DNA of 64,000 nucleotides, from positions 33,010,427-33,074,426 of the forward strand of contig OX442315.1 of assembly GCA_949358305.1 (NCBI GenBank). The letters are read 5' to 3'. The notes below the pieces were generated by a model. The model did no database searches. It saw nothing but the letters and a program-made list of their open reading frames with translations, and was not told the origin of the DNA. A program made the position numbers and the translations under genes. This document shows, one piece after another, positions 12,030 to 56,048 of this stretch; position 1 is the first letter of the stretch, and each line of letters opens with the position of its first letter. This DNA is from Strigamia acuminata (taxonomy: Eukaryota > Arthropoda > Chilopoda > Geophilomorpha > Linotaeniidae).

Positions 12030-12639
12030 TGTGGTGACCACGAGGTCACAAAAGTGTTTTAATTAATCATAACTTAATAAATAGTAATTTTAATATTGAT
12101 AGTAAAATGATTGTCAGATTATTGCGGGAAAACTAGCTATACTAGTTTTACCGTTTCTGCGGGACTGACGTGACAACGTCATAGATTTGCATAATTCCCC
12201 GAATTTATGCAAATACGTCATTTCCGGTCCAGCCACTATTTAAACCCGTATCTGACCGGAAACCCCCACTATATAGATACCAGAGCAACATTAGCATCAC
12301 CACCTCACCGTCGGGCCGTTTTACCGGATTGATAGAGGATCGATGCCCGTTGCCAAATTCATCTATAAATCACAGTCACAGATATTTATCGTAGCAATAC
12401 TACGATAGTAATATCTACCGAAGCGAAGCGTTTGCGAACACGTGTTTCGCCAGACGCCATTACCCTAGACAACAGAAACCACGTGTAAGACTGCCGTGCA
12501 GCAACAAATCGTATCCGCCGACAAGGATCCGAGACCACAACATTGTTAAGTATATTTGTATTATATTACAAGTGTGAAATAAAAGGTTATTATTGTAAGA
12601 TATTGTGTAAGTTTATTTACCGGAATCAAGGTTACGACA
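12030..12639 (+). repeat. Element 1 5' LTR
   Basis: 610 bp, beginning TGTGGTGACC and ending TTACGACA. The U3 part holds TGACGT and ACGTCA half-sites, two inverted octamers (ATTTGCAT 12185-12192 and ATGCAAAT 12207-12214), a TTCCGG motif and a TATA box (TATATAG near 12271). AATAAA at 12578-12583 is the likely poly(A) signal. It should act as promoter and polyadenylation region for the element. Confidence 0.93.
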
Positions 12640-12641
12640 CG

Positions 12642-12659
12642 TGGGGGCCTGTCCGGGAT
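12642..12659 (+). other. Element 1 primer-binding site (tRNA-Pro-like)
   Basis: TGGGGGCCTGTCCGGGAT lies two bases after the LTR. It differs by two transitions from the usual tRNA-Pro site of retroelements. Element 2 has the identical 18-mer, so the variant is a fixed property of the lineage rather than an error. Confidence 0.8.
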
Positions 12660-12725
12660 AGTTTTGAACATTCAAACTATTTTAAATAAACATATCTTAC
12701 GGTTTGAACTTTGCAAACTATCGAA

Positions 12726-15266
12726 ATGACGAAAAGCGGGAAAAATCGAAACCCTTCAACCGCAAGCGCCCGAAGAAAAGCCATGGAATCCGCCAAGGCA
12801 AGGGCCGAAGCATTAGCTAGTCCAGCGTTAGAAAAGCAGCCACCGGAGCCGACGAGGGAAAAGACGACTGGAAAGACACCAGTCAACGAAAACCACGCGG
12901 AAAAACCACCCGAGAATGTGCCGACCGGAAAAACGCCGGCTAGTAAAGTACCCGCTAGCAAAAACCCAACCAATAAAACGCCGATAAATCAGCGAATCGA
13001 AGAAGAAGTCGAAGAGGAAGAAGAAGAATCCGAACAAAGTCAGAACGGGTATAACCTATTCGACAATCAGGATAATCGCCAGAGTAATCGTGTCACGATC
13101 ACACACGGTTATAATTCGAAGAAATCCCAGATCGATAGCTGTAAAGAAGCGTACGAACTCGCTCGACTGGAGGGAATCCCTTACAACGAAGAAGGGGACC
13201 CGCTAGCACAGATGAACATGATCATTCGTCTTGCCAAAGAGCGAGCGGAAAAACGAGCCCTTAGAAGAGGTCGAAAAAACGTAAAACGTCAAAAAACGAA
13301 TAACCAAACGACGGACTCCTATGATTCCACCCGAACATCCGACGCCGACGACGAAAGCGAGGCCGATTCCCTCAGCTCGAAAGGAATCAACGTTCAAGGA
13401 TGGGATAGTATAGTGGACGAGCCAGTCGAAATCCAGAACGAATTCCTGGAAGCCTTCCAGCAGGACCGTCGAAATAATAAGGGTCAACAGTCGTGGGCAA
13501 TCGCCCAATCCTTTGCTACGAGAGCTGGCCACACCAGTCAAACCCCAAAGGACCCTAACGCAGAGATGATTAGACTGATAAATCAGCGAAACCACCTCAG
13601 AAACCAGCAAGGACGGAACAGGTTGGCAATGCCAAGCCTCGAAGATATCCAGACGGTACAAGCCAACGTCGAAGCCGCAAACGAGGCGGAAAGAATTAAA
13701 ATACAAGCCGCCAACGAAGTCGACCGAGAAGCCGCAAGACTAAAGACACAACTTTACGGCGGGAGAGGGTCGACCATTTTGATCGGACAGAAGAACGGGG
13801 TCCTAAATGGAACAGCCATAAACGGAATTTTCCCCCCCGGAACACAACTGACCGAGTCGCAGCCAAACTCGACAACACCGACCTTGACCGACCCGAACTC
13901 AACCAACGGTAATTTCCAACGATTTGCGCCCCAAAATGGAGCTACGTCCCCGAACTGTGGGAATCAATACCAAGCCGATCCCATAATGGAAGCTAGATTA
14001 AGAGCACTCGAGGAACGAGCACGCGCCGACTCCCAGGTCAACCAAAATCGAAATCTGAGAAATCGCCCAAGACAAAACGAGAGCCTTCTTCGAAAATATT
14101 CCGCCGATCAATGGGCTTTAGAACAAAAGGACCGAAACATAAAATGGTCACAGTTGCGACTGATGAGATTCGACGGAACCTGGAGGGCCGGCAATAACTT
14201 CTTAGACGAAGTGGCACTCACCATTTCACGACTCGGAGCCGAACCCGACGAGATGGTAACAAAAGGGCTACCCGAAATGTTAATAGGGGAAGCCAGAGCC
14301 TGGTATGTGGAAGCAAAATTAAAAACTTGGGAACAGTTTGTCGTCGCTTTCAACAGTCAGTACGGCGAGACCCAAAAAGAAATTAGACAGAGAGTCAGTC
14401 TCATGCTACAAGCCGCAGGAGAAGAGTTACGAGCCTATTTCCGACGAGCGAAAAGTTTGTTCAACGAGTTGGATACGCCACTCGACGAATATGCGCAAAA
14501 CGTGATTTTCGAAAAGGGGTTAAACGACACCTCAAAGAAAGTACTGAGAGATATGAACGCTCCCACAGCAGATAGTTTCGAACAGCTGCTAAAATTTGTA
14601 AATGACTATCACGAAGAAGTAGACGATCGTTATACGGAAGCCCTGACGCCCGAACAGAGGACACAAACGCAACTCCGCATACAGCGTATCCATGCGAAAA
14701 ATCATGACGCAGGGAGACTGATCCAGTCGCGTAGCTTCCTGAACGGGGAAATCGAGGCCGCACCTCCGAAAAAGGCGAACGATAAAGCCACCTCGAACCC
14801 GATACCGGCTCCAAAAGCTTACAAAGCCAGTACAAACTCCGACGCAACTAATCTCGAAGAAGGGAGGGAAAGTGAAGACAATAACTCCGAGCAAAACTCA
14901 GGAGGGGATACCAGCGATAGCCAACAAGAAGAAGAGACTCTCCACGCTAACATGGGGAAAGAAATCGCCCCAAGCTACCGACCCCGAATGAAGACCGCGA
15001 ATAAAACGGAGCACCACAATCCAAAAAGCGACAAACCCTACGAGAAAAAAGAGTTCGTGAGACGACCGTACCCGAAAACAGATAACTCCACCACAAAACC
15101 TTGTAATTATTGTAACGAGGTGGGACACTGGAGAAGAGATTGTCCAAAACGAAAGAAGAGGAAAGAAGAGAAGGAAGCCGCCAAAAACGACGCATTGTTA
15201 GAAAAGCTAACAGCCAAATTCGAAGAACTGACAAAAAACTGGTTAAAGCAGACAGAGAAAAAATAA
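12726..15266 (+). CDS. gag: Element 1 Gag
   Basis: 846 codons from the first ATG (12726) to TAA 15264-15266; the open frame begins slightly earlier at a non-ATG codon. Gag forms the particle that packages element RNA. The N-terminal half is highly charged (poly-Glu around residue 100, Lys/Arg-rich stretches). A Retrotrans_gag-type domain lies at about residues 460-630 (RFDGTWRAGNNFLDEV, then ARAWYVE and FNSQYGE). A single C2HC zinc knuckle, CNYCNEVGHWRRDC, at about 793-806 should bind RNA. The last 12 codons overlap the frameshift site. Element 2 Gag shares the domain order but has a far longer charged N-terminus. Confidence 0.93.
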   Translation: MTKSGKNRNPSTASARRKAMESAKARAEALASPALEKQPPEPTREKTTGKTPVNENHAEKPPENVPTGKTPASKVPASKNPTNKTPINQRIEEEVEEEEEESEQSQNGYNLFDNQDNRQSNRVTITHGYNSKKSQIDSCKEAYELARLEGIPYNEEGDPLAQMNMIIRLAKERAEKRALRRGRKNVKRQKTNNQTTDSYDSTRTSDADDESEADSLSSKGINVQGWDSIVDEPVEIQNEFLEAFQQDRRNNKGQQSWAIAQSFATRAGHTSQTPKDPNAEMIRLINQRNHLRNQQGRNRLAMPSLEDIQTVQANVEAANEAERIKIQAANEVDREAARLKTQLYGGRGSTILIGQKNGVLNGTAINGIFPPGTQLTESQPNSTTPTLTDPNSTNGNFQRFAPQNGATSPNCGNQYQADPIMEARLRALEERARADSQVNQNRNLRNRPRQNESLLRKYSADQWALEQKDRNIKWSQLRLMRFDGTWRAGNNFLDEVALTISRLGAEPDEMVTKGLPEMLIGEARAWYVEAKLKTWEQFVVAFNSQYGETQKEIRQRVSLMLQAAGEELRAYFRRAKSLFNELDTPLDEYAQNVIFEKGLNDTSKKVLRDMNAPTADSFEQLLKFVNDYHEEVDDRYTEALTPEQRTQTQLRIQRIHAKNHDAGRLIQSRSFLNGEIEAAPPKKANDKATSNPIPAPKAYKASTNSDATNLEEGRESEDNNSEQNSGGDTSDSQQEEETLHANMGKEIAPSYRPRMKTANKTEHHNPKSDKPYEKKEFVRRPYPKTDNSTTKPCNYCNEVGHWRRDCPKRKKRKEEKEAAKNDALLEKLTAKFEELTKNWLKQTEKK

Positions 15267-15279
15267 TAAATCTGTCTGC
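15233..15279 (+). promoter_or_regulatory. Element 1 gag-pol -1 frameshift signal
   Basis: The slippery heptamer A AAA AAC (15233-15239) is in the correct gag phase. An 8-nt spacer (15240-15247) leads to a perfect 9-bp stem, GCAGACAGA (15248-15256) with TCTGTCTGC (15271-15279). The 14-nt loop contains the gag stop TAA TAA. Slipping back one base enters the pol frame, which is open from here to 19567. This matches the classic design of retroviral -1 frameshift sites. Pseudoknot formation is not assessed. Confidence 0.88.
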
Positions 15280-18200
15280 ACGCCCGGAAGACCAAACCCC
15301 AAAATTTACCACGAATACGACAATTAACCAGGCAATTAACGAAGTAATTACGGAAGAAGTAGTCAAATTAAAACTCGAATTAAAAGAGAAAAAATCGAAA
15401 GAAATTGAAACGAATAATAAAGAAATTAGCGACTCAAGTTCGGAAGACGAATTAAAAGCCAAATGGATAAACACCAATTGGTTAGAAAAACAAATAAAAG
15501 AATTACAGAAAAAGGTCGTTTATTTCACTACGGCTTACTTCACCACAGAAAAACGCGAATATAGTGGCCCAACCACTAATACGGCGGACGGCGAAAAAAT
15601 AGCCGAAACATTCCAAGAATTACCTCACGCCTACGAGGAGGCCCCACCTCGAAAGAAACGCATTTTACATTGTAATTTGGCTAAAGAGCGGAAGGACTCA
15701 CTCGCAATGTTAACAATCAAGTTTAACGACAAAAAATTCATCGGTTTGTTGGATTCGGGAGCCGACCGGTCCTTTATCTCTTCAGATCTATACGAGTCGT
15801 TGGACAAAAAACAACGCGACAAACTACGGGGAATAAGCGAAAATGTGGCCGTAAAAACCGCTGCTGGAGAAGTGCGTCCAGTAGGAGTACTGACAACAAA
15901 AGTCATATGGGAGGGAGGCGTAATAACCCATCCTTTCATCGTTTTACCAACCTACGACACGGTCCTACTCTTGGGTATGGACATCATGGCCATAATGGAG
16001 ATCCAGCCCAACCCCATAACGAGGTCCTGGAACTATATCGATAAACGCGAGGACCCCCGACTAATGACAGTACCTACCGAACTCCTAGATTCGAACGACG
16101 AAGAGGACGAATGGAAAGGCGGAAATTTGAAGCAATTCGTACAAGATTACGATTTCAAATCTTTTAACGCCCGACTCCAAGAAGGAAATTTGGCTCACAA
16201 TTTGGCCATGGACGCGAACCTAGGAGAAACCCAGACTAAATTACTTGAAGAAATGCTACAAAAACATCGAAAAATCCTGACTAAAGAACCGGGAAAGACA
16301 AATTACGTAAAACACGAAATAGAATTAAGTACGGATAAGCCAGTACGAGTTCCATTCAAGGGCATGAACCCCCAAAAACGCGAAATCGTCAAGACGATCT
16401 GTCAAGACTTACTGGACAAGGGGATAGTGTCCGAGGCATTAGGAGAATATGCGATGAGAATCGTGCTCGTCATGCGTGCAGGATCGGAACCCAGACTGTG
16501 CATCGATTATCGACCTCTAAACGCCATTACCGTTATTGACCCCGTCCAGATGCCATCAATCGAAGCCATTCTTCGAGAATTAGCCCCATTTAATTGGGTA
16601 ACAACGATGGATCTGTCGAAAGGATATTGGCAGGTCGAACTCCGTGCCGAAGACAAAGAAAAAACCGCTTTCTGGTCCCCGATGGGCAGGTTAATGTTTA
16701 ATGTCATGCCATTTGGCCTAGTAAATGCCCCGGCAACATTTCAACGTTTAATCGAAAAAGTTTTGGGCGACGCGCTACATAAATACGCCTGGGCGTATCT
16801 GGACGATATTATTATTGTCTCCCAGACTTTTGACGAACACATCAGACATATCGACGAAGTAATACGTCGTTTAGCAGAAGCCGGACTCCACATACACCCC
16901 GGAAAGAGCCAGTTTTGCCGAAAAGAACTTGCGTTTCTTGGATACAAAGTTGGAGTCAATGGCTTATCCATAGACCCAAAGAAAGTACGAGCAATCACCA
17001 ATTTTCCGGCTCCTACGGACGTGAAAGGAGTACAACGTTTTTTAGGAATGGTAAATTTCTTCGGCCGACTCCTACCACATTTAGCGGAAGTCGCGGCCCC
17101 AATCACCGATCTTTTAAAGACTGTCCAGAAAATAAATCCAAAGGAGGACCCGCCGAAAGACCCCGAAATCAAATTTAACTGGACCAGCCATTGCGAAGCA
17201 GCGTTTGACAAAATCAAACAAATGCTAATCGACACCAAAACCATCCCTCTCCCCGACTTGAATCGCGAATTTATCTTACATACGGATGCGAGTAAAATCG
17301 GATTGGGGGCTGCGTTGATGCAAATGCACGAAATCGACGGCCTACATCAAGAAGTACCCACGATCTTTATCAGCCGGAAAATTCAAGCCGCCGAGAAAAA
17401 TTACTCAGCGACAGAGCTCGAATGCTTGGCAATCGTATGGGCAGTTCGTAAATTCAGGCCTTACCTCGAGTTTACAAAATTTACCGTCCAGACCGACCAT
17501 CAGGCTTTAAGGTGGTTCATGGGCCTGAAAGAACCTTCGGGCCGGATGGCTCGATGGCAATTAGAGCTCATGGCTTACGACTTACAAATCGAGTACAAGC
17601 CAGGGAAGTATAACACAGTCGCCGACGCGCTCTCTAGAGCTCCCGCCTCAGAACCCGACGAGCCAGACGACGACGGCGACGACGATTCTCGGATAGCTTA
17701 CTGTCCCACCCCGATCAGGAAGTGGGAATTCAGAAAACAGAATGAACTGCCGAAAGAAAAGTTGGAATCTTCCGATGAAAAATACGTCGGATATTGGATG
17801 AGGGCATATCAATCGGCAAAAGATGCCAGACCAAATTACGACTTATCCATCGAACCCAGAGTCTCGGATAAATTTGTGCGAGCTTTCGTTACACACGTGA
17901 GTAAAGGCACGAACTGTGTCCCACCTACTCGCGAGGAACTCGTCGAAGCTCAGAAGAACGACACCGCCTTCTGTAAAAGGTTCTATGACTACTTGACCAA
18001 CGAGACTTTCCCTGGCGACGTCTACAGCAGAGAATCCAGAGAAGAGTTCAAAATTAAGGCTTCCGCTTATCTGATAGACGATGGCCTACTTTTAAAGTAC
18101 CATCCGAACTTTCGGGACGACTTGACAGAGTCAGGGAGTTCAATTAAAGTCGTAATTCCGAGAAAAGTTCGAACACAAATTCTGTGGATGGTACACGGCC

Positions 18201-19567
18201 ACCCTCTAGCCGGACACGCCGGCGTGGCAAGGACTCTCTACCGGGCCAGTCAACTGTACTATTGGCCCGAAATGAGAAGGGACATCGTACGATTCATACG
18301 ACACTGTCCACGATGCCAAGCCTGCAAGCCTCGGAATAAGGCTAACTACGAGAATTTATCACTTGGACCGTTCGCCCCTTTTGATTGTTGGAGCGTAGAC
18401 CTTATGGGTCCTAAGATAACAAGTGCAAATAGCCACAAATACATACTCGTGATCATGGATGTCGCAACAGGATGGCCAGAGTTGTATCCGATGGCCCACC
18501 CGACTAAGCAGAAAATAATCCAGTGCCTCTACGAAGTCGCGTTACATTTTGGCTTCCCGCGAAAATTAATTTCCGATAATGGCCCACAATTCGCATCAAG
18601 GTTATACAAGGATTTCTGCAATCAATTCGACATTCAACCATCATTTACTTCAACGTATAACCCACGGGCTAATCCCGTGGAGCGACTCAACCGCGACATA
18701 AAATATGCGCTTGCTATTTTCACAGACGTACATTCCAAGTGGGACGAGTTCCTTAAAGAAATAGCATTTAGCATCCGAACGACCATTTCGAGAAACCGCG
18801 GCTTTTCCCCGGCTTATCTCAACTTCGCTCGAGAGCTACGAGTGCCCTGGGATCCACGCATCCCAGAAGGAATTCGAAAAGTCGATCCAAAAAATCCTCA
18901 CATTTACGTACATCAATTAGAACAAGCAATTTCGGCAACCTACCAACATATGATGTCACATGTGTTTGACATGCGCGAACGAGTGAAAAAGTCTGAAAAG
19001 AACACACAATTTTGTAATTTCAAAATCAACGATCTCGTATGGAAGGACACTCACATTTTATCCAGTGCAGATAAAGGGATTCATGCCGGCTTAGCCGACA
19101 AACGAGACGGCCCATACGTAATTACCAAGGCCCACGGCGGGAACGCATTTTCTCTGCAACGTTTGGCCGATAATGTAAATTTTCGATCAATCCACGCTCG
19201 AGAACTGACGCCTTACTTGCCGGAATTTCCACAAGAAGAATGGGCCGAGGACCAAACGCAGCCATCTCCATCGCCCACAATACGAGATATGTTCGACGAC
19301 ATCGCCACTGTTTCAGACTTGAACGAAAATACGACTCACGCAACTCCAGACAGCGCCGAACTAACTAGCGCCCCAGATGGAAATTTAGGAGGGGAGGAAG
19401 CAGCAGTTAACGAAGAAACTCCTAAAACTCCTGAAAAAGAAAAAGAGATTACTAAAAGATCCACACGATCGAGAAGTAAAATACCGAAACCTATAACACG
19501 ACAAAGTACAAGAAAAAAGGCACCAAACCCGTTTATAAAGGACGGTAAAATCACCGGGAGGACATGA
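15233..19567 (+). CDS. pol: Element 1 Pol: protease, RT, RNase H, integrase
   Basis: About 1444 residues read in the -1 frame after gag. The aspartic protease has LLDSGADRSFIS (D codon near 15751). The reverse transcriptase has LCIDYRPLNAITV (near 16500) and the YLDD active site (near 16796-16807). RNase H starts at LHTDASKIGLGAAL (near 17285). The integrase has an HHCC zinc finger ending CPRCQAC (near 18306) and the D,D,E residues in SVDLMGP, ISDNGPQF and NPVERLN. A GPY/F-like module (RDGPYVI) follows, then an acidic tail ending NPFIKDGKITG. No frame damage is seen. There is no own ATG at the start, consistent with Gag-Pol fusion. Confidence 0.95.
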   Translation, partial: KKLVKADREKIINLSARPEDQTPKFTTNTTINQAINEVITEEVVKLKLELKEKKSKEIETNNKEISDSSSEDELKAKWINTNWLEKQIKELQKKVVYFTTAYFTTEKREYSGPTTNTADGEKIAETFQELPHAYEEAPPRKKRILHCNLAKERKDSLAMLTIKFNDKKFIGLLDSGADRSFISSDLYESLDKKQRDKLRGISENVAVKTAAGEVRPVGVLTTKVIWEGGVITHPFIVLPTYDTVLLLGMDIMAIMEIQPNPITRSWNYIDKREDPRLMTVPTELLDSNDEEDEWKGGNLKQFVQDYDFKSFNARLQEGNLAHNLAMDANLGETQTKLLEEMLQKHRKILTKEPGKTNYVKHEIELSTDKPVRVPFKGMNPQKREIVKTICQDLLDKGIVSEALGEYAMRIVLVMRAGSEPRLCIDYRPLNAITVIDPVQMPSIEAILRELAPFNWVTTMDLSKGYWQVELRAEDKEKTAFWSPMGRLMFNVMPFGLVNAPATFQRLIEKVLGDALHKYAWAYLDDIIIVSQTFDEHIRHIDEVIRRLAEAGLHIHPGKSQFCRKELAFLGYKVGVNGLSIDPKKVRAITNFPAPTDVKGVQRFLGMVNFFGRLLPHLAEVAAPITDLLKTVQKINPKEDPPKDPEIKFNWTSHCEAAFDKIKQMLIDTKTIPLPDLNREFILHTDASKIGLGAALMQMHEIDGLHQEVPTIFISRKIQAAEKNYSATELECLAIVWAVRKFRPYLEFTKFTVQTDHQALRWFMGLKEPSGRMARWQLELMAYDLQIEYKPGKYNTVADALSRAPASEPDEPDDDGDDDSRIAYCPTPIRKWEFRKQNELPKEKLESSDEKYVGYWMRAYQSAKDARPNYDLSIEPRVSDKFVRAFVTHVSKGTNCVPPTREELVEAQKNDTAFCKRFYDYLTNETFPGDVYSRESREEFKIKASAYLIDDGLLLKYHPNFRDDLTESGSSIKVVIPRKVRTQILWMVHGHPLAGHAGVARTLYRASQLYYWPEMRRDIVRFIRHCPRCQACKPRNKANYENLSLGPFAPFDCWSVDLMGPKITSANSHKYILVIMDVATGWPELYPMAHPTKQKIIQCLYEVALHFGFPRKLISDNGPQFASRLYKDFCNQFDIQPSFTSTYNPRANPVERLNRDIKYALAIFTDVHSKWDEFLKEIAFSIRTTISRNRGFSPAYLNFARELRVPWDPRIPEGIRKVDPKNPHIYVHQLEQAISATYQHMMSHVFDMRERVKKSEKNTQFCNFKINDLVWKDTHILSSADKGIHAGLADKRDGPYVITKAHGGNAFSLQRLADNVNFRSIHARELTPYLPEFPQEEWAEDQTQPSPSPTIRDMFDDIATVSDLNENTTHATPDSAELTSAPDGNLGGEEAAVNEETPKTPEKEKEITKRSTRSRSKIPKPITRQSTRKKAPNPFIKDGKITGRT

Positions 19568-19813: not shown

Positions 19814-19957
19814 ATGCGAAGAAACTGGAAGCAATCACCCGACAACGAAGAGGAAGAAATGGATCGGGACCCAAGCGAAGACGAATGGAACGATCCCGCA
19901 AGATGGGACGAGGTTGAACCGGAAGAAAATCGGGAAAAGCCCGATGGAAACGAAAAG
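19814..19957 (+). CDS. Element 1 ORF3, exon 1
   Basis: 48 codons from ATG 19814 to a GTAAAA donor at 19958, phase 0. The product is very acidic (EEEEMDRDPSEDEWNDP). It joins in frame to the acceptor ending at 20173. Element 2 has the equivalent exon at 40436-40552: also acidic, also ending in phase 0, with an ENWDEQ segment similar to DEWNDP. The parallel between the two elements is the main support, since the exon is short. Confidence 0.75.
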
Positions 19958-20173
19958 GTAAAAATAACAAAGAATTTAATTTGTGGCTAAACCACGAAAA
20001 TACGTGAAACAAGATTCATAAAAGAAAACATCTTTATGTCAACAAACGAAAAATGACACGAGCCATTATTTAAAATTCAACACGTGTAAAAAGCACATGG
20101 TCGACCATGGCGCCATCTTGAATCCAAATTCGGAATTTAACAAAAATCTAATTTTTATGTATTCATTCCTCAG
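19958..20173 (+). other. Element 1 ORF3 intron
   Basis: 216-bp GT-AG intron (GTAAAA donor; CATTCCTCAG acceptor) between the two ORF3 exons. It is AT-rich compared with the flanking coding sequence, and its removal keeps the frame. The equivalent intron in Element 2 is 560 bp. An intron kept in the genomic copy requires that full-length unspliced RNA is the retrotransposed form. Confidence 0.72.
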
Positions 20174-22744
20174 CCGGAACACCAACTTACGTGGGGACCC
20201 ATCGATCCACAAAACGTGTCTTCGGGTACACTCTGGAGAAGCGAAATTCCGACCCCATTTCGAAGAGCGTTAGAGGACGACGTCGACACCGGACCATGGA
20301 AAATTCGGCTCACTTCATCCCGAGCCCGATCGCGATTTTGGGCAAGTCAGGAGACCCTGATACACTACTTCCCAGAAAAGATGCGCGACGCACTGAGGAC
20401 TGAAATTCCAGAACGCGACGACGCACCAGCACCACTCCCAAACAAGTTTTTGGAAAAGGACTATCCAAGCGAGCCCAAAGAGTGGGCTGTCCTCGAGAGG
20501 TGGCAAAACGCCGCTACAGACGAAGAGCGCCGACAAATACACAGAGACTATTACAACGAAGTCAGACGGACGGCGTATCGAGATCTCTTCAAAATACTGA
20601 AACCAGCAGGGTATTCGACAGATGAGATAAAAACTTGGTTAAGCCAGGTTCGAGGAGAAAGACCAGACGTTCCCAACTGGCGGCCCGAACACGGATTTAT
20701 TACCTCACAGAAAGCAATGCACCAGCTCCACTACCTGGGCATCTTTGGGCGCAAGCGACAGAAAGCGGAGAAGCGACTCTCGAGCGAATTATTAAATCAC
20801 ACACACGACAACAAGCGACGACGCCTGGATCAGCCAAGCACGTCGTACAACACGCACGATCGATCGCAGTCTCATCCTCGAGTTTATTACCGACACGCTC
20901 GAGAACCCTCGCCGCGACGAGAGCCCAGAGTCGAGAAGCCACGGGAGGTCGAGACATACCGCTACTCCAGAAATCGACCGAACCAACGCGGATGCCTCAG
21001 GTTATCAAGGCCACGAGCAGAAACATGGGGACGCTTTGAGAGATCACGTGAAGTCGATGAGGTAGAGACTTTGCAAGTGGAAGTTCGACAAGAAGTGCCA
21101 TTAACGATCGAACACGAACAATCGGCAGAGCCGATGATCGTACCGGAACAAGAGAGAAAATATACCGAAGCCGACATGGTAGCAGCAGTCCTGAAGGCCA
21201 AAAATGAACAATCGAAGCCTGTCTACCGGCCGACTAAATCGATCGAAATGAGCATAACTTCGGTGCCAAGTGTGTTCATCAAAACACCGACAAAGCCAGC
21301 CACCAGCGTGCCTTCTAGTCTGCCCAGCGCATTCCGAAAAACTGTGGTCATCGGAGCCCCGACATCGCTGAGTCCCTTTGAACAACTCAAACGACGACAA
21401 GATCGTTTTGGACCAATTTTCCCAGCCGTACCGGAAGAAACGCGAAGCGAGACTTCTACGTTGAGAACACCGATTGTTTGGGATGAGCCCGAACCCGATG
21501 TTCAACGAGTTTTAATTAACTCAAGACAAGATACCGTAGTTAGAGTCGACGAAAGCAATCAAACGCCTTCAAGACCACCCCCCAATAACAGATCTTCGGA
21601 CACTCGAGCCACAACCCAGTTTGATCCAACATCGTGTGAATTACAGTCGTTCCTCGATACAACCACGATCGAGCAAGCAAAAGAGATGGTGTCCGACATC
21701 GATGACTACCAAGCCAGAACGATGCAGATCGCCGTGACGAATATCCGAAGCGCGGCCATCGAGTTCACCAACAGCCCTGGACGAGATCACCCGTCACGAA
21801 TGGCACGAACGACAGTCGTAATCACCGACATGATGTCGCTAGTGCTGGCCGCATCTACGTTTAGAAACGCCCGTGTGGCACTGGCAGCCTGGGCGGTCGT
21901 CGCACATGAAAGTTTTCAGCTGCCTCCCGCTCTCGTCGAGCGATGGCTAAAATTGGTTCCTTCCTGTATCCAGGTCCGCGCGCAATTAATTGCAGAAGAT
22001 GCCGACCCAGAACGATCATACCAGGTAGTCCGAGCTGTGGCTGTACCACAAAGCGAACCGGTCGTACTAACCAACAAACCCCTTCCTGAGACTCCGGCGA
22101 GCCAGACAGTCCCAGCAGTCACTCCAGAGGAGACGATAAAGTTCCCCGAAGGACTGGTTCCGATCGAAGGCGTGAAAGTAGTCGTCCGGAAGACGAAGAC
22201 AAAACCAAAGATCCTGCGGCCCAAGAGAAAATTAGAGCCGAAACCTTTGCCTCCGATCGACGCACAACTCAAACACTACTACCCGAGTTTGACGATGACC
22301 CAGAAGACGAAGAACCAGATCAAGCGATCGAGCGACCACGGCCACTCGCTCTACTTATGGATGGAGCGAACTCTAGAGGCAGGTCCAGGCGTCGATTTCA
22401 TTCAGCACCAACGTCTGCTGCGTGCACACCGCGCCCCGAAGAATCCGGCCGAAGCCCAGAAGATCCACCATACCAATCAAGGCCTGGCCCCCTTCCTCTC
22501 GCGTATCTGGGTACATGAACGAGTCGGCGCCCCCTACGAACCAGTTGGCGGCCACGATCGATACTTCATCGGGGAGTTTGAAGACCCGAGCGATCGTTCA
22601 TCACGTCTCACCTCGATTTTGCCGATCGCCGAACCAACGACTCCAGCAACTCCGGAGATGGCTAAACCACCTGTAACCGAAGAATTACCTCCACCTCCGC
22701 CTCCGGACGTTCCTCAGGGATCATCTGAAAAGGAAGCGAACTAA
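20174..22744 (+). CDS. Element 1 ORF3, exon 2 (unrecognised conserved protein)
   Basis: 856 codons plus stop; with exon 1 about 904 residues. I do not recognise the family. Three blocks match Element 2 ORF3. Block A has WKIRL, YSTDEIKTWL, then W-P and QLHYLGIFG. Block B has DHPSRM, ALAAWAVV and LPPALVERW. Block C, near the C-terminus, has SSDHGHSLYLWMER, LLRAHRAPKNPAEA and RIWVHERVG with YFIGE. Between A and B lies a basic Arg/Ser/His-rich stretch that could bind nucleic acid; the C-terminus is proline-rich. No signal peptide, transmembrane segment or zinc knuckle is visible, so it does not look like env. It ends about 70 bp before the 3' LTR. Confidence 0.85.
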   Translation, partial: PEHQLTWGPIDPQNVSSGTLWRSEIPTPFRRALEDDVDTGPWKIRLTSSRARSRFWASQETLIHYFPEKMRDALRTEIPERDDAPAPLPNKFLEKDYPSEPKEWAVLERWQNAATDEERRQIHRDYYNEVRRTAYRDLFKILKPAGYSTDEIKTWLSQVRGERPDVPNWRPEHGFITSQKAMHQLHYLGIFGRKRQKAEKRLSSELLNHTHDNKRRRLDQPSTSYNTHDRSQSHPRVYYRHAREPSPRREPRVEKPREVETYRYSRNRPNQRGCLRLSRPRAETWGRFERSREVDEVETLQVEVRQEVPLTIEHEQSAEPMIVPEQERKYTEADMVAAVLKAKNEQSKPVYRPTKSIEMSITSVPSVFIKTPTKPATSVPSSLPSAFRKTVVIGAPTSLSPFEQLKRRQDRFGPIFPAVPEETRSETSTLRTPIVWDEPEPDVQRVLINSRQDTVVRVDESNQTPSRPPPNNRSSDTRATTQFDPTSCELQSFLDTTTIEQAKEMVSDIDDYQARTMQIAVTNIRSAAIEFTNSPGRDHPSRMARTTVVITDMMSLVLAASTFRNARVALAAWAVVAHESFQLPPALVERWLKLVPSCIQVRAQLIAEDADPERSYQVVRAVAVPQSEPVVLTNKPLPETPASQTVPAVTPEETIKFPEGLVPIEGVKVVVRKTKTKPKILRPKRKLEPKPLPPIDAQLKHYYPSLTMTQKTKNQIKRSSDHGHSLYLWMERTLEAGPGVDFIQHQRLLRAHRAPKNPAEAQKIHHTNQGLAPFLSRIWVHERVGAPYEPVGGHDRYFIGEFEDPSDRSSRLTSILPIAEPTTPATPEMAKPPVTEELPPPPPPDVPQGSSEKEAN

Positions 22745-22817: not shown

Positions 22818-23427
22818 TGTGGTGACCACGAGGTCACAAAAGTGTTTTAATTAATCATAACTTAATAAATAGTAATTTTAATATTGATAGTAAAATGATT
22901 GTCAGATTATTGCGGGAAAACTAGCTATACTAGTTTTACCGTTTCTGCGGGACTGACGTGACAACGTCATAGATTTGCATAATTCCCCGAATTTATGCAA
23001 ATACGTCATTTCCGGTCCAGCCACTATTTAAACCCGTATCTGACCGGAAACCCCCACTATATAGATACCAGAGCAACATTAGCATCACCACCTCACCGTC
23101 AGGCCGTTTTACCGGATTGATAGAGGATCGATGCCCGTTGCCAAATTCATCTATAAATCACAGTCACAGATATTTATCGTAGCAATACTACGATAGTAAT
23201 ATCTACCGAAGCGAAGCGTTTGCGAACACGTGTTTCGCCAGACGCCATTACCCTAGACAACAGAAACCACGTGTAAGACTGCCGTGCAGCAACAAATCGT
23301 ATCCGCCGACAAGGATCCGAGACCACAACATTGTTAAGTATATTTGTATTATATTACAAGTGTGAAATAAAAGGTTATTATTGTAAGATATTGTGTAAGT
23401 TTATTTACCGGAATCAAGGTTACGACA
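22818..23427 (+). repeat. Element 1 3' LTR
   Basis: 610 bp, identical by eye to the 5' LTR except A at 23101 (G at 12313). It is followed by the AGCT target duplication. Confidence 0.93.
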
Positions 23428-26629: not shown

Positions 26630-26995
26630 TCGTTTTAAATTTTTAAAATTTTGCAGATTTGAATTCTAAATGTCGTGGTTTTATAAATTTCGTCATGTTA
26701 ATTTTAAATGTTATATTTTATGGTTTTAATGTTAAATTTTTTGATTTTAATTTTAAATTTTGCAGTTTTAAATTTAAAAATTTGTGATTTTAATTCTAAA
26801 TTTTGTAATTTGAATTTTAAATTTTATATTTTATATTTTAAATTTAAAATTTTGGAATTTTTACATTTAAAATTTAAAATTTTGGAATTTTTACATTTAA
26901 AATTTAAAATTTTGGAATTTTTACATTTAAAATTTAAAATTTTGGAATTTTTACATTTTAAATGTTAAATTTTGGAATTTTTACATTTTAAACTT
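26630..26995. repeat. 30-bp AT-rich tandem repeat array
   Basis: About five near-identical 30-bp units containing AAATTTTGGAATTTTTACAT occupy roughly 26838-26990. More degraded TTTTAAATTTTG-type units extend left to about 26630. The period is a multiple of three, so a frame stays open and would read as a repeated 10-residue peptide, but composition and lack of context argue against a protein. Confidence 0.8.
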
Positions 26996-36221: not shown

Positions 36222-37041
36222 TGTCGCGTCCTACTTGGTATAGGTTTAAATAGCGCTAACGTGTAATACTTTACCTGTGATCAATTATGTAAATACCCAA
36301 ATGAATACCAAATGTATGTAAATAAACAGGTAATTTATTCACCAGGCTTTATGCCTTTAAAATACACTCAGTAATAATTCTAGAGTCGACGTGGTCAGCG
36401 TCGAACAAAGGATTTCTCAAGATGGCGTCGTCGATTCCGCGTGGTCGGCGGAACAAAGGCGGCGTCTCGAGTTGTCGTTAATTCGTCACGGATTCGTCTT
36501 CACGGACGCGGTGGAATGCTCTTTCGAGTCTTCTATCCGTGCCTGTTGTCTAGGGTTTGTTTAGCGTCGCAGAGGCCTCGTCTAGGAACTTTGGGGTTCC
36601 CTACAAAGCACTCGGACACTTACTTCGGCGAATAATCGTCTGGGCGATTATTCTGGGTGATTTCACAAGGGCTATTCTCGTGCTTTCGCAGGAATAGCTC
36701 GCAAGTGACTTCGTGAGAGTTACAGTTTGCACTTTACTCAGCGATCCTCGATCAATCCTAACTTGTAGTTGAAGTTGGCCTGACGGTGAGGTAGTTGCTG
36801 TGTTCTTGGTGTCGTTTGTGTAAGTTCTGTCTTTAGGCGGGAAACACAGCCTTTTATGCAGTGGGGTGAAGGGCCGGCGATCAACCAATGGGGGCTGACC
36901 ACCAGCCGCTTCCTCCCCCTCGGGGCACACACCTGCCATGGGGAGGTGGAGCCAACTCGGGGGGGAACGACTCTTTAATCATAGTGACTCATAGGACAAG
37001 TATCCGCCCTGGGGGGACACTTATCCAACTGGGTCACCACA
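36222..37041 (-). repeat. Element 2 3' LTR
   Basis: 820 bp, no difference seen from the 5' LTR at 48271-49090. Minus-strand AATAAA at 36334-36339, TATA-like box at 36851-36859, CCAAT-type box near 36886. Confidence 0.93.
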
Positions 37042-37088: not shown

Positions 37089-39875
37089 TCATCGCTCTCC
37101 TCTGCGAAGAGCCGGCAGCACTCCTCTGCATGGGCGGAGGATCACGGGTGGCACTGCCGGTGGCGGCGGTGGTAAATCCGGGGGCAGAGAGGTTGTCAGA
37201 TCCGCAGGATTTTGTCGCTCGTTGATGAAGTACTGCGGGTGACTGCCGGCTGGCTCGCCAACCAACCCCGTACGCTCATGGATCCAAATCCGGGTAGACG
37301 CGGGGAATCGATCGGGGACGAGTCGGATCCTTCGCGACTCGGCGCTCGATCCGGGTTTCCTGTGGGCCCGTAGGATACGGCGATGGAAGACGGCGTCCAT
37401 GGTGGATCGGGCTTCTCTGTTTAGCCATTTGAGGATTGATTCGCCGTGATCGTCGGAGTCAATGATGCGTTGTCGCGTGAACTCCGACATCTGAAGGAAG
37501 GGGTATTCCACTCCCAGCCTCAAATAAAGCTGCGCTGCTGGGGGCGGCGGAGGCGATGGTGGGAGCGGAATCTCCATTGGGCTCTCCAACGGTGGCGTAG
37601 CCGGCTCTGCAGAGAGAGCGGCCAGCCCTGCCGCTGGTGGTGAAGGAGAGGGCAGCGGAGGAGTTCGGGGTCCTCGCTTGGAACGCTTCGGAATCAATAT
37701 GGGTCGATTCGCGTGTCGCTTCTCCTTCGGGAATACCGGCTTTGGGGTCGGTATGTATGGTTGGACCGCCGCCTCTGGGGGGGCGGTCTCGATGGCCTGT
37801 GGAAGGCTCGCCGCCGTTCCCGGTATCTCCGGAACCTCCCGAATTGTTCGCAACAAGGAAGGGTGGACTCCGGGGTTCCGGTAGCGGAATGCTAACGAAC
37901 GCATCTTTGAAAACTGTAGGCCTGGGTTTTCCGTATTTCTGGCCAGGTCGAAGCGCAGCGAGGCGGGCTCAGGAGTCCATCCGGCCCATACCTGGTACAA
38001 CGCCCGAGGAAGGTGAACTCCCTCACGGTCGACGATTGTCCAGGCCGCCATAGCTTGCCGACTGTCCAAGAAGACGCCCAGGGATAGCAGCTGGGCCAGT
38101 ACGTTCGTCACAGCCAAATTCAAACTGCTCCGATGGCAGGGGTGAGCGCGGTCCGGATTGTCACTGAATTGTTGTGACAACGTCCGCATCTGTTCGATCG
38201 CCCAGTTGATGTGGTGAGTTTGGGCGGCGTCGGCCTGTCGTATGGCCAACTCGGCAATCGCGGGGTTCTCGTATTCGGCCAGATATTCTTGTAACTCGCT
38301 GAGTGGGGGATAGGCCGCTTCACGCCGGCATCTGGCGTCCATCTCCCGCTGCGCGTACCACTCGGCGTTGCGATGAGGATGGTACACTCGTGGCGTCGGG
38401 GGTGACGGTGGACGGCCCATCCCTGGTAGGTCGTCGTATCTGACCCGTTTGGGAGTTGGATCTCCCACCGGAATCATCCGGGGAGGGGTCCACGTGGTCA
38501 CTGCTGGGTTTGTACCCTCGAGGAGTGGCGGCCATCGCGATTGCACCTGTGGGGGCACAAGCGCGGTGGGCACAGCCGGTGTTGAGCCCGACGGCCGGTT
38601 GGCCGCGTATCCTCGGAAGGCGTTCTTCAATGCCATGGCCAGATCTTGTTTCGTGACCGGTCCATCCTTGTCCGACTCTTCTTGGGATATTTGTTCTTCC
38701 GTCAATTCTCCCAAATCAATCTCTGCCTGGAGCCTGGACGGCCCAGCCGCGGATCCGAGACTTCGGGGTTCGGACCTTTTTGCGGCGGCCATCTCTCGCT
38801 CTTTCTCCAATCCTTTCGCGATCAGAGACCGCGCACGCGTCTTCTGTCGTACTTTACGCTTCCGATTCCTCCTGGTGTTGGCTGCGACGGATCTTCGTTG
38901 GACCGTCCTCTGGGGGACGTCCGTCGGGGAATCAGGTCTCTGGTGTGTTGAGACGGTTCGTCGCGACGAGGATTGATCTGACGACTGTGTGGTAATCGCC
39001 ATAAACAACGAGGATCTTTTCTTTCCTCGATCTTGGTGTGTCTCGGTCCTCGCAGCCCAGTGGGCGGAAGATTCGACCGTTCGCTCAGCCCGCGCGTCGT
39101 CTGGCGAGGCAGGCTCGAGCGTTACTACTCGGCGACACTCCGAGCGCACGACAACTCGAGTTCGGGAACTGGAGCTGCTCGAGCGGCTGCGGTAGTCGCG
39201 ACTCGTTGACGGGCCGGCCTCTGTTGGGGAGACGGCCTGTCTTCTTCGTGCGGGTCCGCGTGGGGCGGACTCCGCCGGACGCTTCGATCTTCTGTGATGG
39301 CGGCGACTTCCCAGGATACCAGCGTGGTATAACTGCCACATCTCAGACTGCGTGGCCGTAAAATTCGCCGGTGGTATCCATCTGGGTGTCAAATGGTCTT
39401 CTTCGATGTCGCGAAGCCATCTACGGATTTCTTCGGGGGAGAAACCGTTTCTCTCGAGAACTCGGGTTACTCCGTGAGTCTCGGTGCGCTTTAAGCGTTC
39501 GATCTCGTCGTCCACTATTTTCTGGCGGGCTGCCAAGGTCGGGGCCTCGCTCCACCTGTGGGAGGTGTGCAGCTCGGCCACCGTGCCTGGGTAAGCCTCT
39601 TCCAGGTACCCGGAGTAAACGGGGCTCGGCGGATCCGCATCGGGTGGGATCCGCGGCCCCACTCGCTCCCTCATCTCCTTCGTCATGCACTCGACCAGCG
39701 TTTTCGATCGCTCGAATTTTTCCTCGAGGGTCCTGGAGTACATCAATCGGATTTTCCAGGCGCTGGTCTCTGCAGGATAGGCCTGCCGCAGGTAAATCGG
39801 CAGGGCTCCGCGAAAGATGTTGTTGGCGGTTGACACCGTCGAAGGCAGGGCGTCCCACGATTCTAGCGGGTCGAC
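37089..39875 (-). CDS. Element 2 ORF3, exon 2 (unrecognised conserved protein)
   Basis: 928 codons plus stop; with exon 1 about 967 residues. It is homologous to Element 1 ORF3. Block A has WKIRLMYSR, FSPEEIRRWL and QLYHAGILG. An Arg/Ser-rich stretch follows (SRDYRSRSSSSSSRTR). Block B has AHPCHRSS, AMAAWTIV and LPRALYQVW. Block C has DSDDHGESILKWLNRE, RILRAHRKPGSSAE and RIWIHERTG with YFINE. Long proline-rich segments flank block C. There is no membrane segment or signal peptide. The RS-rich stretch resembles those of RNA-binding or splicing-linked proteins, but function is unknown. Confidence 0.85.
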   Translation of the reverse strand, partial: VDPLESWDALPSTVSTANNIFRGALPIYLRQAYPAETSAWKIRLMYSRTLEEKFERSKTLVECMTKEMRERVGPRIPPDADPPSPVYSGYLEEAYPGTVAELHTSHRWSEAPTLAARQKIVDDEIERLKRTETHGVTRVLERNGFSPEEIRRWLRDIEEDHLTPRWIPPANFTATQSEMWQLYHAGILGSRRHHRRSKRPAESAPRGPARRRQAVSPTEAGPSTSRDYRSRSSSSSSRTRVVVRSECRRVVTLEPASPDDARAERTVESSAHWAARTETHQDRGKKRSSLFMAITTQSSDQSSSRRTVSTHQRPDSPTDVPQRTVQRRSVAANTRRNRKRKVRQKTRARSLIAKGLEKEREMAAAKRSEPRSLGSAAGPSRLQAEIDLGELTEEQISQEESDKDGPVTKQDLAMALKNAFRGYAANRPSGSTPAVPTALVPPQVQSRWPPLLEGTNPAVTTWTPPRMIPVGDPTPKRVRYDDLPGMGRPPSPPTPRVYHPHRNAEWYAQREMDARCRREAAYPPLSELQEYLAEYENPAIAELAIRQADAAQTHHINWAIEQMRTLSQQFSDNPDRAHPCHRSSLNLAVTNVLAQLLSLGVFLDSRQAMAAWTIVDREGVHLPRALYQVWAGWTPEPASLRFDLARNTENPGLQFSKMRSLAFRYRNPGVHPSLLRTIREVPEIPGTAASLPQAIETAPPEAAVQPYIPTPKPVFPKEKRHANRPILIPKRSKRGPRTPPLPSPSPPAAGLAALSAEPATPPLESPMEIPLPPSPPPPPAAQLYLRLGVEYPFLQMSEFTRQRIIDSDDHGESILKWLNREARSTMDAVFHRRILRAHRKPGSSAESRRIRLVPDRFPASTRIWIHERTGLVGEPAGSHPQYFINERQNPADLTTSLPPDLPPPPPAVPPVILRPCRGVLPALRRGER

Positions 39876-40435: not shown

Positions 40436-40552
40436 CTGCAACGGCGGTTGTTCGTCCCAATTCTCATCGTCTTCTGCATTTACGATTAGGCCGTCGCTCT
40501 CGTCTCTCGACGATGCGCTCGGCTCTAATCGTGGGTTGCGTCGATCGGCCAT
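40436..40552 (-). CDS. Element 2 ORF3, exon 1
   Basis: 39 codons from ATG at 40552 to a GTAAAT donor just below 40436, phase 0. The product is acidic (NAEDDENWDEQPPLQ). It joins in frame to the acceptor at 39876. The position between pol and ORF3 and the ENWDEQ segment match exon 1 of Element 1. Confidence 0.75.
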
Positions 40553-40932: not shown

Positions 40933-43900
40933 TTAGTTCTTCCCCACGACTTTGCCGTCCCGAATGAACGGATTATTGCTTCGTCGTGGTCGAAGGTTGA
41001 TTTTCGACGTGCTCGTAGATCGTGACTCTACTTGCTCGTTCATCTCCGATGTGTTGGCATTTTTCTCATTATTAATTTTTTTATTTTCCATTTCAGAAGT
41101 ACATTCTTCTGCTTCCTCCCTCTCCGAAATTGCTTGCTCCGGCTGTGCTGGAGCCTCGTCGGCCGGAGATTCGGCGTCGAAGAATTCATCCTCGTCCTCC
41201 GCTATATTTTCAGCTTCATTTGTTTTTTGGAACGTGTCGACCACGGTGCCCCCTTGGCCGCTGTGTGTCTGACCTTCCAGCCAGATTTCTTGGGGAAACT
41301 CTGGCAGATATGGCCTTAAATCTCGGCCATGTATCGACTGAAAATTTTTGTTGTCCTCTAAGCGGCGTAGTTGGTATGCGTTGCCGCCGTGTTCGGCCAC
41401 AATTACATAGGGACCGTCCCTCTTGTCGGCTAAACCTGCGGCGATGCCCCTCGCTGCATTGGACAACGTGTGTGCCTCCTTCCACACTAGATCATTCACT
41501 TTAAAGTTCGCGAAAGCGAGATCGCCTTCTTTATCTGCGATTCTTTCTCTCATGCTGAAAATATGCGCCATCATATGCTGGTATGTGTCGGATATAGTCT
41601 GTTCCAACCGGCACACGTACTCGTGTGGGCTCGATGGGTCTAATACGTTAACAGCTTCGGCAACGCGTGGGTCCCATGGCATCCTTAATTCGCGGGCGAA
41701 GTTGAGGTACGCCGGTGAGAATTCGCGTGTTCTTGACACGGTTGAGCGAATGCTGAAAGCGATTTCTCGCAGGTATTCGTCCCATCGATTGTGAATGTCG
41801 GTGAATACTGTCAGCGCATATTTTATATCTTTATTTAATCTCTCGACTGGGTTTGTCTGAGGATTATATGTGGAGGTGTTCGATGCATCCATTTTAAATT
41901 TCCTACAGAAGTCCTTATATATTCTTGATCGGAATTGGGGGCCGTTATCCGAAATGAGTTTTCTGGGAAACCCAAATCGCATTGCCACGTCGTAAAGGCA
42001 CTCGACTATGTTTTCAGCCGAGGGCTTCGCGAGGGCGTACAGCTCCGGCCATCGGGTGGCCACGTCCATAATTACGAGAATATACATGTTCTTGTTTCCC
42101 GTCGTGGGCTTGGGGCCCATCAAGTCTATGCTTAAGCAGTCAAACGGTGCGTAGGGTCCGAGAGACATGGCGTTTCTGGCTACTTTATCTCGCGGTCTGC
42201 ATGCTTGGCACCGGGGGCAGTGTCGGATAAATTTCGTTATCTTTTGCCGCGCGCCCGGCCAGAAGAAAAGTTGCTTTACTCGATAAAGGGTTCTCGCTAT
42301 GCCGGAATGGCTGGCGAGCGGGTGTCCGTGCATCAGCCACAACAGTCGGTTGTGCAGTGATGCCGGTACGACCACTTTCACCGAGTTTCCCGCTCCACTG
42401 AGGTCATCTTGAAATGTCGGGTGGTATTTTACCAGGAGTTCATCATCTATGAGGTAGCTTGTTGCTTCTTTGACGAACTGTTTCCGGCGGTGTGGGTTTG
42501 TCATCCCTTCCGGAAATTCGCCGTTCAGCAAATATTGTGTTATAATTTGACATTTTGTGTCTGCTGCCTGGTGTTCGACGAACTCACGTCTCGTGGGTGG
42601 AGCATATTGCGTTTTTTCTTCAATTTTTGCTGTGAAGGCGCGTAGTAGTGTTTTGTGGGTTTCTCCGGGGGGCGGAGGTTGAATTGCGGACGTTGAATCG
42701 CTCGTCCCAGCTGGCTGGTACGTTCGAGTCCAAAAACCACAAAACGTTCTATCTTCGGGCTCCATCACCGGCAGTTCGTTTGCTTTTCGTAAGCGCCATA
42801 TTCTGCGTGGAGTTGGGCAGTACAAGAGGTGGGTGTCGTCCTCGCCGTCGTCGTCTGGTCCCTGGGGGTCAGAGGCTGGGGCTCTTGAGAGGGCGTCGGC
42901 CACATGATTGTACTTCCCGGGGCGGTACGTAATTGTTATATCGCACGCCATTAACTCCAGTTGCCATCTTGCGAGTCGGCCGGAAGGTTCCTTGAGCTTC
43001 ATCAACCAGCTTAGTGCCTGGTGATCTGTCTGAACCTCGAAGTTCGTGTACTCCAGATAGTCGCGAAATTTTCGAACTGCCCAAATTACGGCTAGGCATT
43101 CTAGTTCCGTTGCCGTGTAATTTTTCTCCGCGCCCTGTATTTTCCTGCTTATAAACATACAGGGTACTTCTTGCGAGATTCCGTTGTACACGTGGGTCTG
43201 CAGAAGGGCTGCACCCAGTCCGATTTTACTCGCGTCGGTGTGCAACACGAACGGTCGGTTTAGGTCCGGCAATGGCATCTTTTCGACGTCAGCCAGCATT
43301 TGCTTGATAGTGCTAAATGCGGCCTCGCACTGGACCGTCCACTCAAACTCTTTATCCGTTCGTAAGAGATCCGTTATAGGCGCGGCCACCTCAGCCAGAC
43401 CAGAGAGTAGTCGGCCGAAGAAATTGACCATGCCCATGAATCTTTGGACACCTTTTATATCTTCGGGGGCGGGGAATCCGTTTATTGCTTTGACCTTTTC
43501 GGGGTCAATCGCGATTCCCTCGACTCCTATTCGATATCCTAGGAAGGCAAGCTCTTTTCTGCAAAACTTGCTCTTCCCTGGATGGATGTGGAGTCCCGCC
43601 TTGGCTAGGCGAGAGACCACTCTGTCGATGTGGTCTATATGCTCTTCGAATGTGTCCGACGTTATTATTATGTCGTCGAGATACGCCCACACGAAGTCGT
43701 GAAGCATATCTCCCAACACGCTTTCGATCAATTTCTGGAACGTGCTCGGGGCGTTTACAAGCCCGAACGGCATCACGTTGAACATTAATCTTCCTATCGG
43801 GGAGTAGAAAGCCGTTTTTAGTTTGTCTTCTGGTTTTAGCTCCACTTGCCAATACCCCTTTGACAGATCCATCGTGGTTACCCACTTGAACGGGCTCAGT

Positions 43901-48000: not shown

Positions 48001-48176
48001 GCAGCTTGCTCCTCTTTCTGCGCCTTCGCTCTCCTTTTATTCGCTCGGGCTTTCGCCTTTGCGGACATTTCAGGGACGGGACCATCCGATCTCAGGTGGT
48101 AGTCGGAGGTCCTTTTTCCCTTCTCGGGCATTCTCTGCTCGGTTTCAGACGTGGATTGCTCGTCTTTGTCTGACAT
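45036..48176 (-). CDS. gag: Element 2 Gag
   Basis: 1046 residues from ATG at 48176. The N-terminal 600 residues are very hydrophilic, with a long Glu/Arg/Lys-rich heptad-like region (about 230-430) likely to form a coiled coil, then a Ser/Pro/Arg-rich stretch. A Retrotrans_gag-type domain follows at about 655-825 (TRFDGSWKAGDRFLDEV, SAREWYQG, FDLRYGE), aligning with Element 1 Gag. One zinc knuckle, CYSCGEYGHYSDKC, lies at about 998-1011. The stop codon is in the loop of the frameshift stem. At over 1000 residues it is unusually long for a Gypsy Gag. Confidence 0.93.
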   Translation of the reverse strand: MSDKDEQSTSETEQRMPEKGKRTSDYHLRSDGPVPEMSAKAKARANKRRAKAQKEEQAASLAALDGPERERVPLNMQPFEDTDPEAIENREEIRDVSPGRVSILMTEETNEAPKITVTIGTDPSPPTAQTSVKQTPRKNDGGTPITPRVTASPAVVSFEVSHLIRLTQQAAQLKAMIDIPVGTSVWESITLLTDAICAAQAPTPVARPAAETPMPQVTPSDTGGFAPDPNRTLHESREKAREEARQEATSRQRRLSAERRELWKEEEEREQRERRTTERTEKLVQKMREEREAKIRKEWNATVEGRHREAQEYEDQFQALIAQRKTEKLQMLRKEAILQHQKWEEQHRERLREEEARKEKEQFLKEKEEWDRVRWTEEYKAKKQAIIDEQKRWEAENWEKETEKFQKEYAQDVSDRKKNEENLKRKPEPPSGSDTDTGEGATKPAKTAKRGKSQKRDESVPKTKDRHPSKRSETGAAIDALLEKKNANKNRERPESEENRWHSFYENNDGGEPPPSGGSKQKKAGGETPPRGPRFHPQGDPSEPSDSSDDDHPSRPSTGRSQEDSDGHRSNRPNASDRSSRSSNPRSEEGNFQDSSGRHYTMSELGRALLNSFRREGIDLGHPGDEHNRAGERVKRKYGVRNEPSSEATGNIRWQHYIQTRFDGSWKAGDRFLDEVMRIKKATKATVADMLTHGLVELTTGSAREWYQGLKNPTWDDFLVRFDLRYGETPDEISNKLRGLRQAPGETLADYDARAKLLFARAPYEINPAGFTMIFYGGLSAHSQRILLDMRAPRTGDYQDVSNYLLTNTLEIEQRYYATLPPEEADAHEKRLQTSAERHKTSEKLMRPSEYLSGIMSLTEASFGRMLTPKAGSILPANPIAAPKKAPAATAMQVTSTDSTQMEKVEETTPLATAKEEEPASSDEEALNEHLENLSTGCDDQGPYLHHAHRALAIAQFRAHVQATKARGALGGKRRFPTPFVPKKPGFTPTGDKSNIKCYSCGEYGHYSDKCEKTVKEKGIMQTLMKMMMELNTNLAKNSQAQASPK

Positions 48177-56030: not shown

Positions 56031-56048
56031 TGGTGCCGAAACCCGGGA
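56031..56048 (+). other. BEL primer-binding site (tRNA-Phe-like)
   Basis: TGGTGCCGAAACCCGGGA directly abuts the LTR. It is complementary to the usual eukaryotic tRNA-Phe 3' end (acceptor strand TTTCGGCA plus CCA, preceded by the CCCGGG of the T-arm). Confidence 0.75.

Follow-up and report, generated by a model that had tools for sequence, protein, structure and literature searches.

The window analysed here, the whole 64-kb stretch of Strigamia acuminata DNA (contig OX442315.1, positions 33,010,427 to 33,074,426), holds three long terminal repeat (LTR) elements: Element 1 (E1) on the plus strand, Element 2 (E2) on the minus strand, and one BEL/Pao element. With its LTRs, primer site, gag, and a pol in the order protease, reverse transcriptase (RT), ribonuclease H, integrase (PR-RT-RNaseH-IN), E1 is a Ty3/Gypsy-type LTR retrotransposon, and 3′ of pol it carries a third open reading frame, ORF3, which is the subject of this analysis. 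ORF3 consists of two exons encoding 48 + 856 = 904 amino acids, joined at phase 0 (19957/20174), which confirms the coordinates and the approximately 904 codons given by a first-pass annotation of this DNA. The parts of the gene are the following:

19814..19957, plus strand: ORF3 exon 1, 48 amino acids, acidic, ending at phase 0
19958..20173, plus strand: ORF3 intron, 216 nucleotides, GT..AG, with four stops in each frame
20081..20120, plus strand: conserved block within the intron, CACGTG ... CACATGGTCGACCATGGCGCCATCTTG
20174..22744, plus strand: ORF3 exon 2, 856 amino acids
20222..20749, plus strand: N block, exon-2 residues 17-192, conserved with E2
20750..21622, plus strand: linker with Arg-rich stretches, residues 193-483
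21623..22048, plus strand: middle block, residues 484-625, predicted to be mainly helical
22268..22603, plus strand: C block, residues 699-810, in which numerous His, Arg, Glu and Trp residues are invariant

In a rough splice-site matrix the donor of this intron ranks 2nd among 440 GT sites and the acceptor 9th among 772 AG sites. That the proposed junction is indeed used is demonstrated by genomic copies. A joined-exon pattern, with up to two mismatches permitted, was searched against the host genome (237.5 Mb) and gave three matches, all exact (C1:15587979, C1:20983247 and C5:10350060), in which precisely nucleotides 19958-20173 are missing. This exact loss in three copies identifies E1 ORF3, which has no clear env traits, as a spliced third gene. 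At the intron-less locus L016 (G000:C5) exon 1 is followed directly by exon 2, joined just as predicted, and the locus differs from the intron-bearing L015 by 4 of 2,570 nucleotides over exon 2 (about 99.8% alike) and by 1 of 434 upstream of the intron, while the two LTRs of the C5 intron-less copy are identical over 613 matching nucleotides (the 610-nucleotide LTR plus 3). The closeness of L016 to L015 and the identical LTRs point to the recent reverse transcription of a spliced RNA in which the end of pol was retained. Pairwise, the three intron-less copies differ by 1, 2 and 4 nucleotides (over compared parts of 1,740-2,427 nucleotides), and this lineage may have gone on multiplying in the intron-less form. 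At 55 genomic sites the pattern of the intron donor is retained, so most E1-type copies stem from unspliced RNA, and the RNA that is usually packaged keeps the intron. All 48 residues of exon 1 are present at 96-100% identity in 25 of the 26 E1-type loci; in the remaining one, L007 (G000:C6:11021743-11027265), exon 1 is shortened, unrelated sequence replacing its first 31 codons, and the intron and exon 2 are intact.

The first-pass annotation took it as a sign of selection that the long frame is open in a copy whose LTRs are nearly identical. This reason is weak, because a young copy would be open regardless, but selection itself is borne out by the ratio of nonsynonymous to synonymous divergence (dN/dS) in genomic copies, a comparison suggested at the same time. 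The ratio was obtained for exon 2 by the Nei-Gojobori method with the window copy as reference. Eight loci (L001-L008), comprising the window copy and near-identical ones, are uninformative; in 18 of 18 diverged loci (L009-L026, dS 0.07-0.49) dN/dS lies between 0.11 and 0.17, and the 78 pairs among 13 of these loci have a median of 0.12 and a maximum of 0.19. When 10 of the 26 loci are compared with the window copy region by region, the values are 0.11 for the N block (resting on few changes, dS 0.11), 0.16 for the linker, 0.08 for the middle block, 0.16 for the second linker, 0.04 for the C block and 0.30 for the tail. The three conserved blocks noticed earlier are thus real, and have the lowest ratios. 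A degenerate pattern from the C block, R-I-W-x-H-E-R, has 226 matches in the genome and its reversed control none.

Frame integrity leads to the same picture: internal stops occur in merely 4 of 54 matches to the E1 query (the best of 1,434 candidates; 6 of them cover the query partly) and in 0 of 50 matches to the E2 query (the best of 2,709). As only the best candidates were scored, the numbers are minimum values that favour intact copies, and decayed copies are under-counted. The ORF3 frame is not due to chance, because E2 has a homologous 915-amino-acid frame at the same place and dN/dS is 0.11-0.17; ORF3 of E1 is a genuine gene kept by purifying selection. Separately, dS in L009-L026 steps from about 0.1 (exon-2 residues ~1-240) to 0.3-0.9 (residues 241-856), and in L011, L021 and L022 the sequence preceding exon 2 is 99-100% identical to the window, with an exon-2 dS of 0.13-0.46. 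These are mosaic copies, probably produced by recombination between subfamilies.

The remainder of E1, which is flanked on both sides by a 4-bp duplication (AGCT), comprises:

12030..12639, plus strand: 5′ LTR, 610 bp, TG..CA, one mismatch with 22818-23427
12640..12659, plus strand: primer binding site, CG followed by TGGGGGCCTGTCCGGGAT, tRNA-Pro-like, adjoining the LTR
12711..15266, plus strand: gag, 851 amino acids (Pfam Retrotrans_gag, 2.7e-07; zf-CCHC, 1.7e-05)
15140..19567, plus strand: pol, PR-RT-RNaseH-IN, 1475 amino acids (Pfam)
22818..23427, plus strand: 3′ LTR, 610 bp, paired with the 5′ LTR

E2, on the opposite strand, comprises:

48271..49090, minus strand: 5′ LTR, 820 bp
45036..48176, minus strand: gag, 29% identical to E1 gag in a local alignment of 426 columns; CCHC match below cut-off
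40933..44964, minus strand: pol, PR-RT-RNaseH-IN (Pfam), 60% identical to E1 pol
40436..40552, minus strand: ORF3 exon 1, 39 amino acids, acidic, NWDE motif, phase 0
37089..39875, minus strand: ORF3 exon 2, 928 amino acids, start predicted, homologous to E1 ORF3
36222..37041, minus strand: 3′ LTR, 820 bp, identical to 48271-49090

The gag and pol frames of E1 (12711-15266 and 15140-19567) overlap with a −1 shift; those of E2 are likewise offset by −1, yet are separated by a gap. An AT-rich tandem repeat with a 30-nucleotide step lies between the two elements, at 26799-27038. The BEL/Pao element (55551-61911) is young, with 481-bp LTRs that are 100% identical and a single frame of 1780 amino acids. 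The elements are flanked by BK/Slo-type potassium channel exons at 2287-4389 (Pfam Slo-like_RCK, BK_channel_a), which fit an animal host.

The 915-amino-acid frame of E2 matches E1 ORF3 with a BLASTP value of 5e-36. Identity is 31% in the N part, 28% in a stretch with the middle and C parts, and 41% in the C block alone, and codon positions 1, 2 and 3 agree at 0.43, 0.52 and 0.31. Over whole alignments, the two elements are 28% identical in ORF3, 25% in gag and 60% in pol. The E2 donor (40435) ranks 1st of 521 sites in the rough matrix, and the acceptor (39876) is weak (33rd of 952). Use of this donor is seen in an E2-type copy, L080 (C1:58131341), which has lost precisely 119 nucleotides (40435-40317); the acceptor it used, 40317, would end the frame after two codons and so give a short frame. 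The genome search found no copy in which E2 exon 1 is joined to exon 2 at 39875, and this junction stays predicted; nor did it find a joined copy for the ORF3 junction of F4, one of two further families with related genes.

In family F3, L072 has an open ORF3 frame, 49% identical to E2 and 33% identical to E1 over the N part. Its exon 2 begins with VDPLQSWDALPS preceded by CAG, and no exon 1 was recognised in this locus. Since it was the ORF3 motif that led to F3, this family cannot tell whether related elements always carry the gene. F4 was reached by way of pol. A search with RT (best 150 of 3,572 candidates scored) revealed a large group of loci 83-85% identical to E1 RT, and ORF3 is present in both sampled members, open in L079 and interrupted in L078. 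L079 has an 896-amino-acid open frame with 55% (N part) and 46% (rest) identity to E1, together with an acidic exon 1 carrying the NWDE motif, a phase-0 GTAAGT donor and a 271-nucleotide intron. The predicted layout of a charged, acidic exon 1, a phase-0 intron and exon 2 is therefore common to E1, E2 and F4. A further E1 relative, L073 (77-79%), has an interrupted frame. In L078 (G000:C5:9926300-9930000) the C-terminal part of F4 ORF3 lies beside a Copia-like-looking frame with short tandem repeats, a call made by eye from a zinc knuckle and protease-like letters, and the locus is apparently a nested element.

In addition, the intron contains a conserved non-coding block. The E1 and F4 introns are equal at 30 of 32 nucleotides over 20089-20120, AAAAGCACATGGYCGACCATGRCGCCATCTTG, which is preceded by CACGTG in both, and E2 has a related stretch on its minus strand, from 40747, in the interval separating pol from exon 1. 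The combined block pattern has 321 genome matches at up to one mismatch, and its reversed control 0. The block could act at the DNA level, as a binding site, or as a signal in the RNA.

For the ORF3 protein, no Pfam family scored above cut-off in any ORF3 tested and no PDB-sequence match was obtained, in agreement with the earlier remark that it matches no recognised family. Pfam and profile comparison detected neither a Retrotrans_gag domain nor a CCHC knuckle; the N, middle and C blocks gave no profile match to gag and no profile link to pol, and there was no GDSL or DEDDy exonuclease match in Pfam. The intron-less copies, the low dN/dS, the open frames in most scored copies and the relatives in other families of this genome support the view of ORF3 as a conserved, spliced third gene that is not a known env or capsid. 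Of the outcomes that the annotation named as refuting, none appeared: no known family was matched in Pfam or among PDB sequences, the junction has been used, and few of the scored frames contain stops. The family may have been catalogued elsewhere already. The nearest Pfam match is REV in F3 (E 0.11-0.13), and this score stems from an Arg-rich stretch. The linker is Arg-rich in different ways: RS-rich with TRRNRKRK in E2, TRRNRKSRARRRQR in F3, and a long RD/RE-rich run in F4; in E1 the net charge is +5, +5 and +4 in 50-residue segments spanning residues 151 to 300. The highest 19-residue hydropathy is 1.27 in E1, as expected from the annotation, which saw no membrane segment, but it is borderline in E2 (1.75, in the middle block). 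At the N-terminus, where an envelope protein would have its signal peptide, exon 1 is charged and acidic in E1, E2 and F4, although further exons, among them gag exons, may be joined upstream of it. No cysteine is invariant among 4 or 5 aligned ORF3s, and E1 exon 2 has 3 cysteines in 856 residues. The invariant His, Arg, Glu and Trp of the C block might, speculatively, form a nucleic-acid or metal site. More generally, ORF3 may act in association with nucleic acid or particles, as was proposed from its blocks and linkers.

We tentatively favour a more specific role, and give a probability of about 0.42 to this spliced, selected third gene being a nuclear RNA-handling regulator, an analogue of Rev and CERV. 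Retroelements that splice must nevertheless export unspliced RNA. In Cer1 of C. elegans, CERV is the product of a spliced non-env third gene and is needed for export of the unspliced genomic RNA (PMC10309623). This need, together with the CERV precedent, is why we read ORF3 as CERV/Rev-like; the exact removal of the intron in some copies and its retention in most, the purifying selection, the layout common to E1, E2 and F4, the Arg-rich linkers, the lack of a strong membrane segment in E1 and the primer-site letters shared with Cer1 also count in favour. ORF3 would then be located in the nucleus, bind RNA and control its export or splicing: with the help of ORF3, the full-length, intron-bearing RNA would avoid being spliced and be exported from the nucleus to be packaged, and the spliced RNA would encode the ORF3 protein itself.

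Several observations weigh against this role. The ORF3s show no sequence or fold link to Rev or to RNA-binding domains, and CERV was compared by description only; the Pfam REV score is 12.8-12.9 bits against a cut-off of 22, and in F3 only. The conserved residues of ORF3 hold no counterpart of the cysteine-rich loop in the M domain of CERV (PMC10309623), and the structure models are poor, with a mean predicted local distance difference test (pLDDT) score of 37 and, for the middle block, 55. The intron block folds no better than shuffled sequences (z −0.5 to −1.3). The three near-identical intron-less copies lack it, so that intron and block are maybe dispensable in cis. Finally, splicing onto exon 2 is demonstrated in E1 alone.

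It is possible, at distinctly lower odds, that ORF3 is a particle or assembly protein, either a second structural protein or a gag accessory, acting on the genomic RNA in the cytoplasm. Its divergence between E1 and E2 is about that of gag (28% versus 25% identity, with pol at 60%), and both the Arg-rich linkers and the middle block, predicted to be mainly helical, would suit such a protein. However, it has neither a capsid nor a CCHC signature and its blocks do not match gag profiles, and a bulk structural protein made from spliced RNA alone would be unusual. We rate equally low the proposal that ORF3 acts against silencing by the host, or guides the element in nuclear import or integration, with which the basic stretches after the N block, the strong conservation and the many near-identical copies are consistent, but to which no domain match and none of the tests points specifically. 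Capture of a host gene with a cellular function has a precedent in the unrelated ORF3s captured by rotifer LTR elements (PMC5408684), but appears improbable, with no Pfam family above cut-off, no PDB-sequence relative, and every ORF3 match examined further apparently belonging to an element. Least credible is that ORF3 is a strongly diverged envelope protein, or one that serves transmission between cells: the hydropathy of 1.75 in E2 and the transfer of MDG1-group elements through a short transmembrane protein, sORF2 (PMC11952523), stand against an acidic exon 1, a maximum of 1.27 in E1, Arg/Pro-rich linkers and the lack of an invariant cysteine.

Among known systems, the env of errantiviruses is a transmembrane accessory protein of gypsy-type elements. 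MDG1-group sORF2 is likewise an accessory gene of such elements and transmembrane (PMC11952523), whereas ORF3 has no clear membrane segment. Bdelloid rotifer LTR elements also carry a third ORF, of several unrelated types (PMC5408684), but these are env-like, GDSL esterase or DEDDy exonuclease, and ORF3 matches no such Pfam family. The plant Retand elements with TRP28 ORFs share a long region between pol and the 3′ LTR with conserved extra ORFs of unknown role, but those are antisense to gag and pol (PMC11963269), whereas ORF3 is sense and spliced.

Cer1 is the closest parallel to the role we favour. It is gypsy-type, with a non-env third gene between pol and the 3′ LTR expressed from spliced RNA, unspliced RNA as the genome, three structured parts with linkers, and rapid divergence (PMC10309623); the E1 and E2 primer sites moreover share 8 letters, TGGGGGCC, with the beginning of the Cer1 tRNA-Pro site (PMC3315495). 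In contrast, CERV has 517 amino acids and five exons, exons 1-3 being in the gag frame, and a Rossmann-like G domain besides its cysteine-rich loop (PMC10309623), whereas ORF3 has 904 amino acids (967 predicted in E2) and its own acidic exon 1 3′ of pol, and its modelled parts look helical, at low confidence. As the cysteine-rich loop is absent, and CERV was compared by description, ORF3 is not classed as CERV. A bolder proposal, which we consider unlikely, is that ORF3 is the founder of a new family of retroelement proteins that regulate RNA export or splicing. A system of the Rev/CERV type would then have originated independently in another Gypsy lineage of animals; it might work through the conserved block, which lies in the ORF3 intron of E1 and F4 and just upstream of exon 1 in E2, so that only unspliced genomic RNA would carry it. 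To our knowledge, there are few other gypsy-type cases of such a non-env export gene. As CERV demonstrates, a gypsy-type element can use a third gene that is dedicated to the task, and is not env, to get its unspliced genomic RNA exported (PMC10309623). With a second lineage, in which numerous copies are near-identical, sister copies exist with and without the intron, and other families hold relatives, it becomes testable whether Rev-like regulators have evolved repeatedly within elements of this type.
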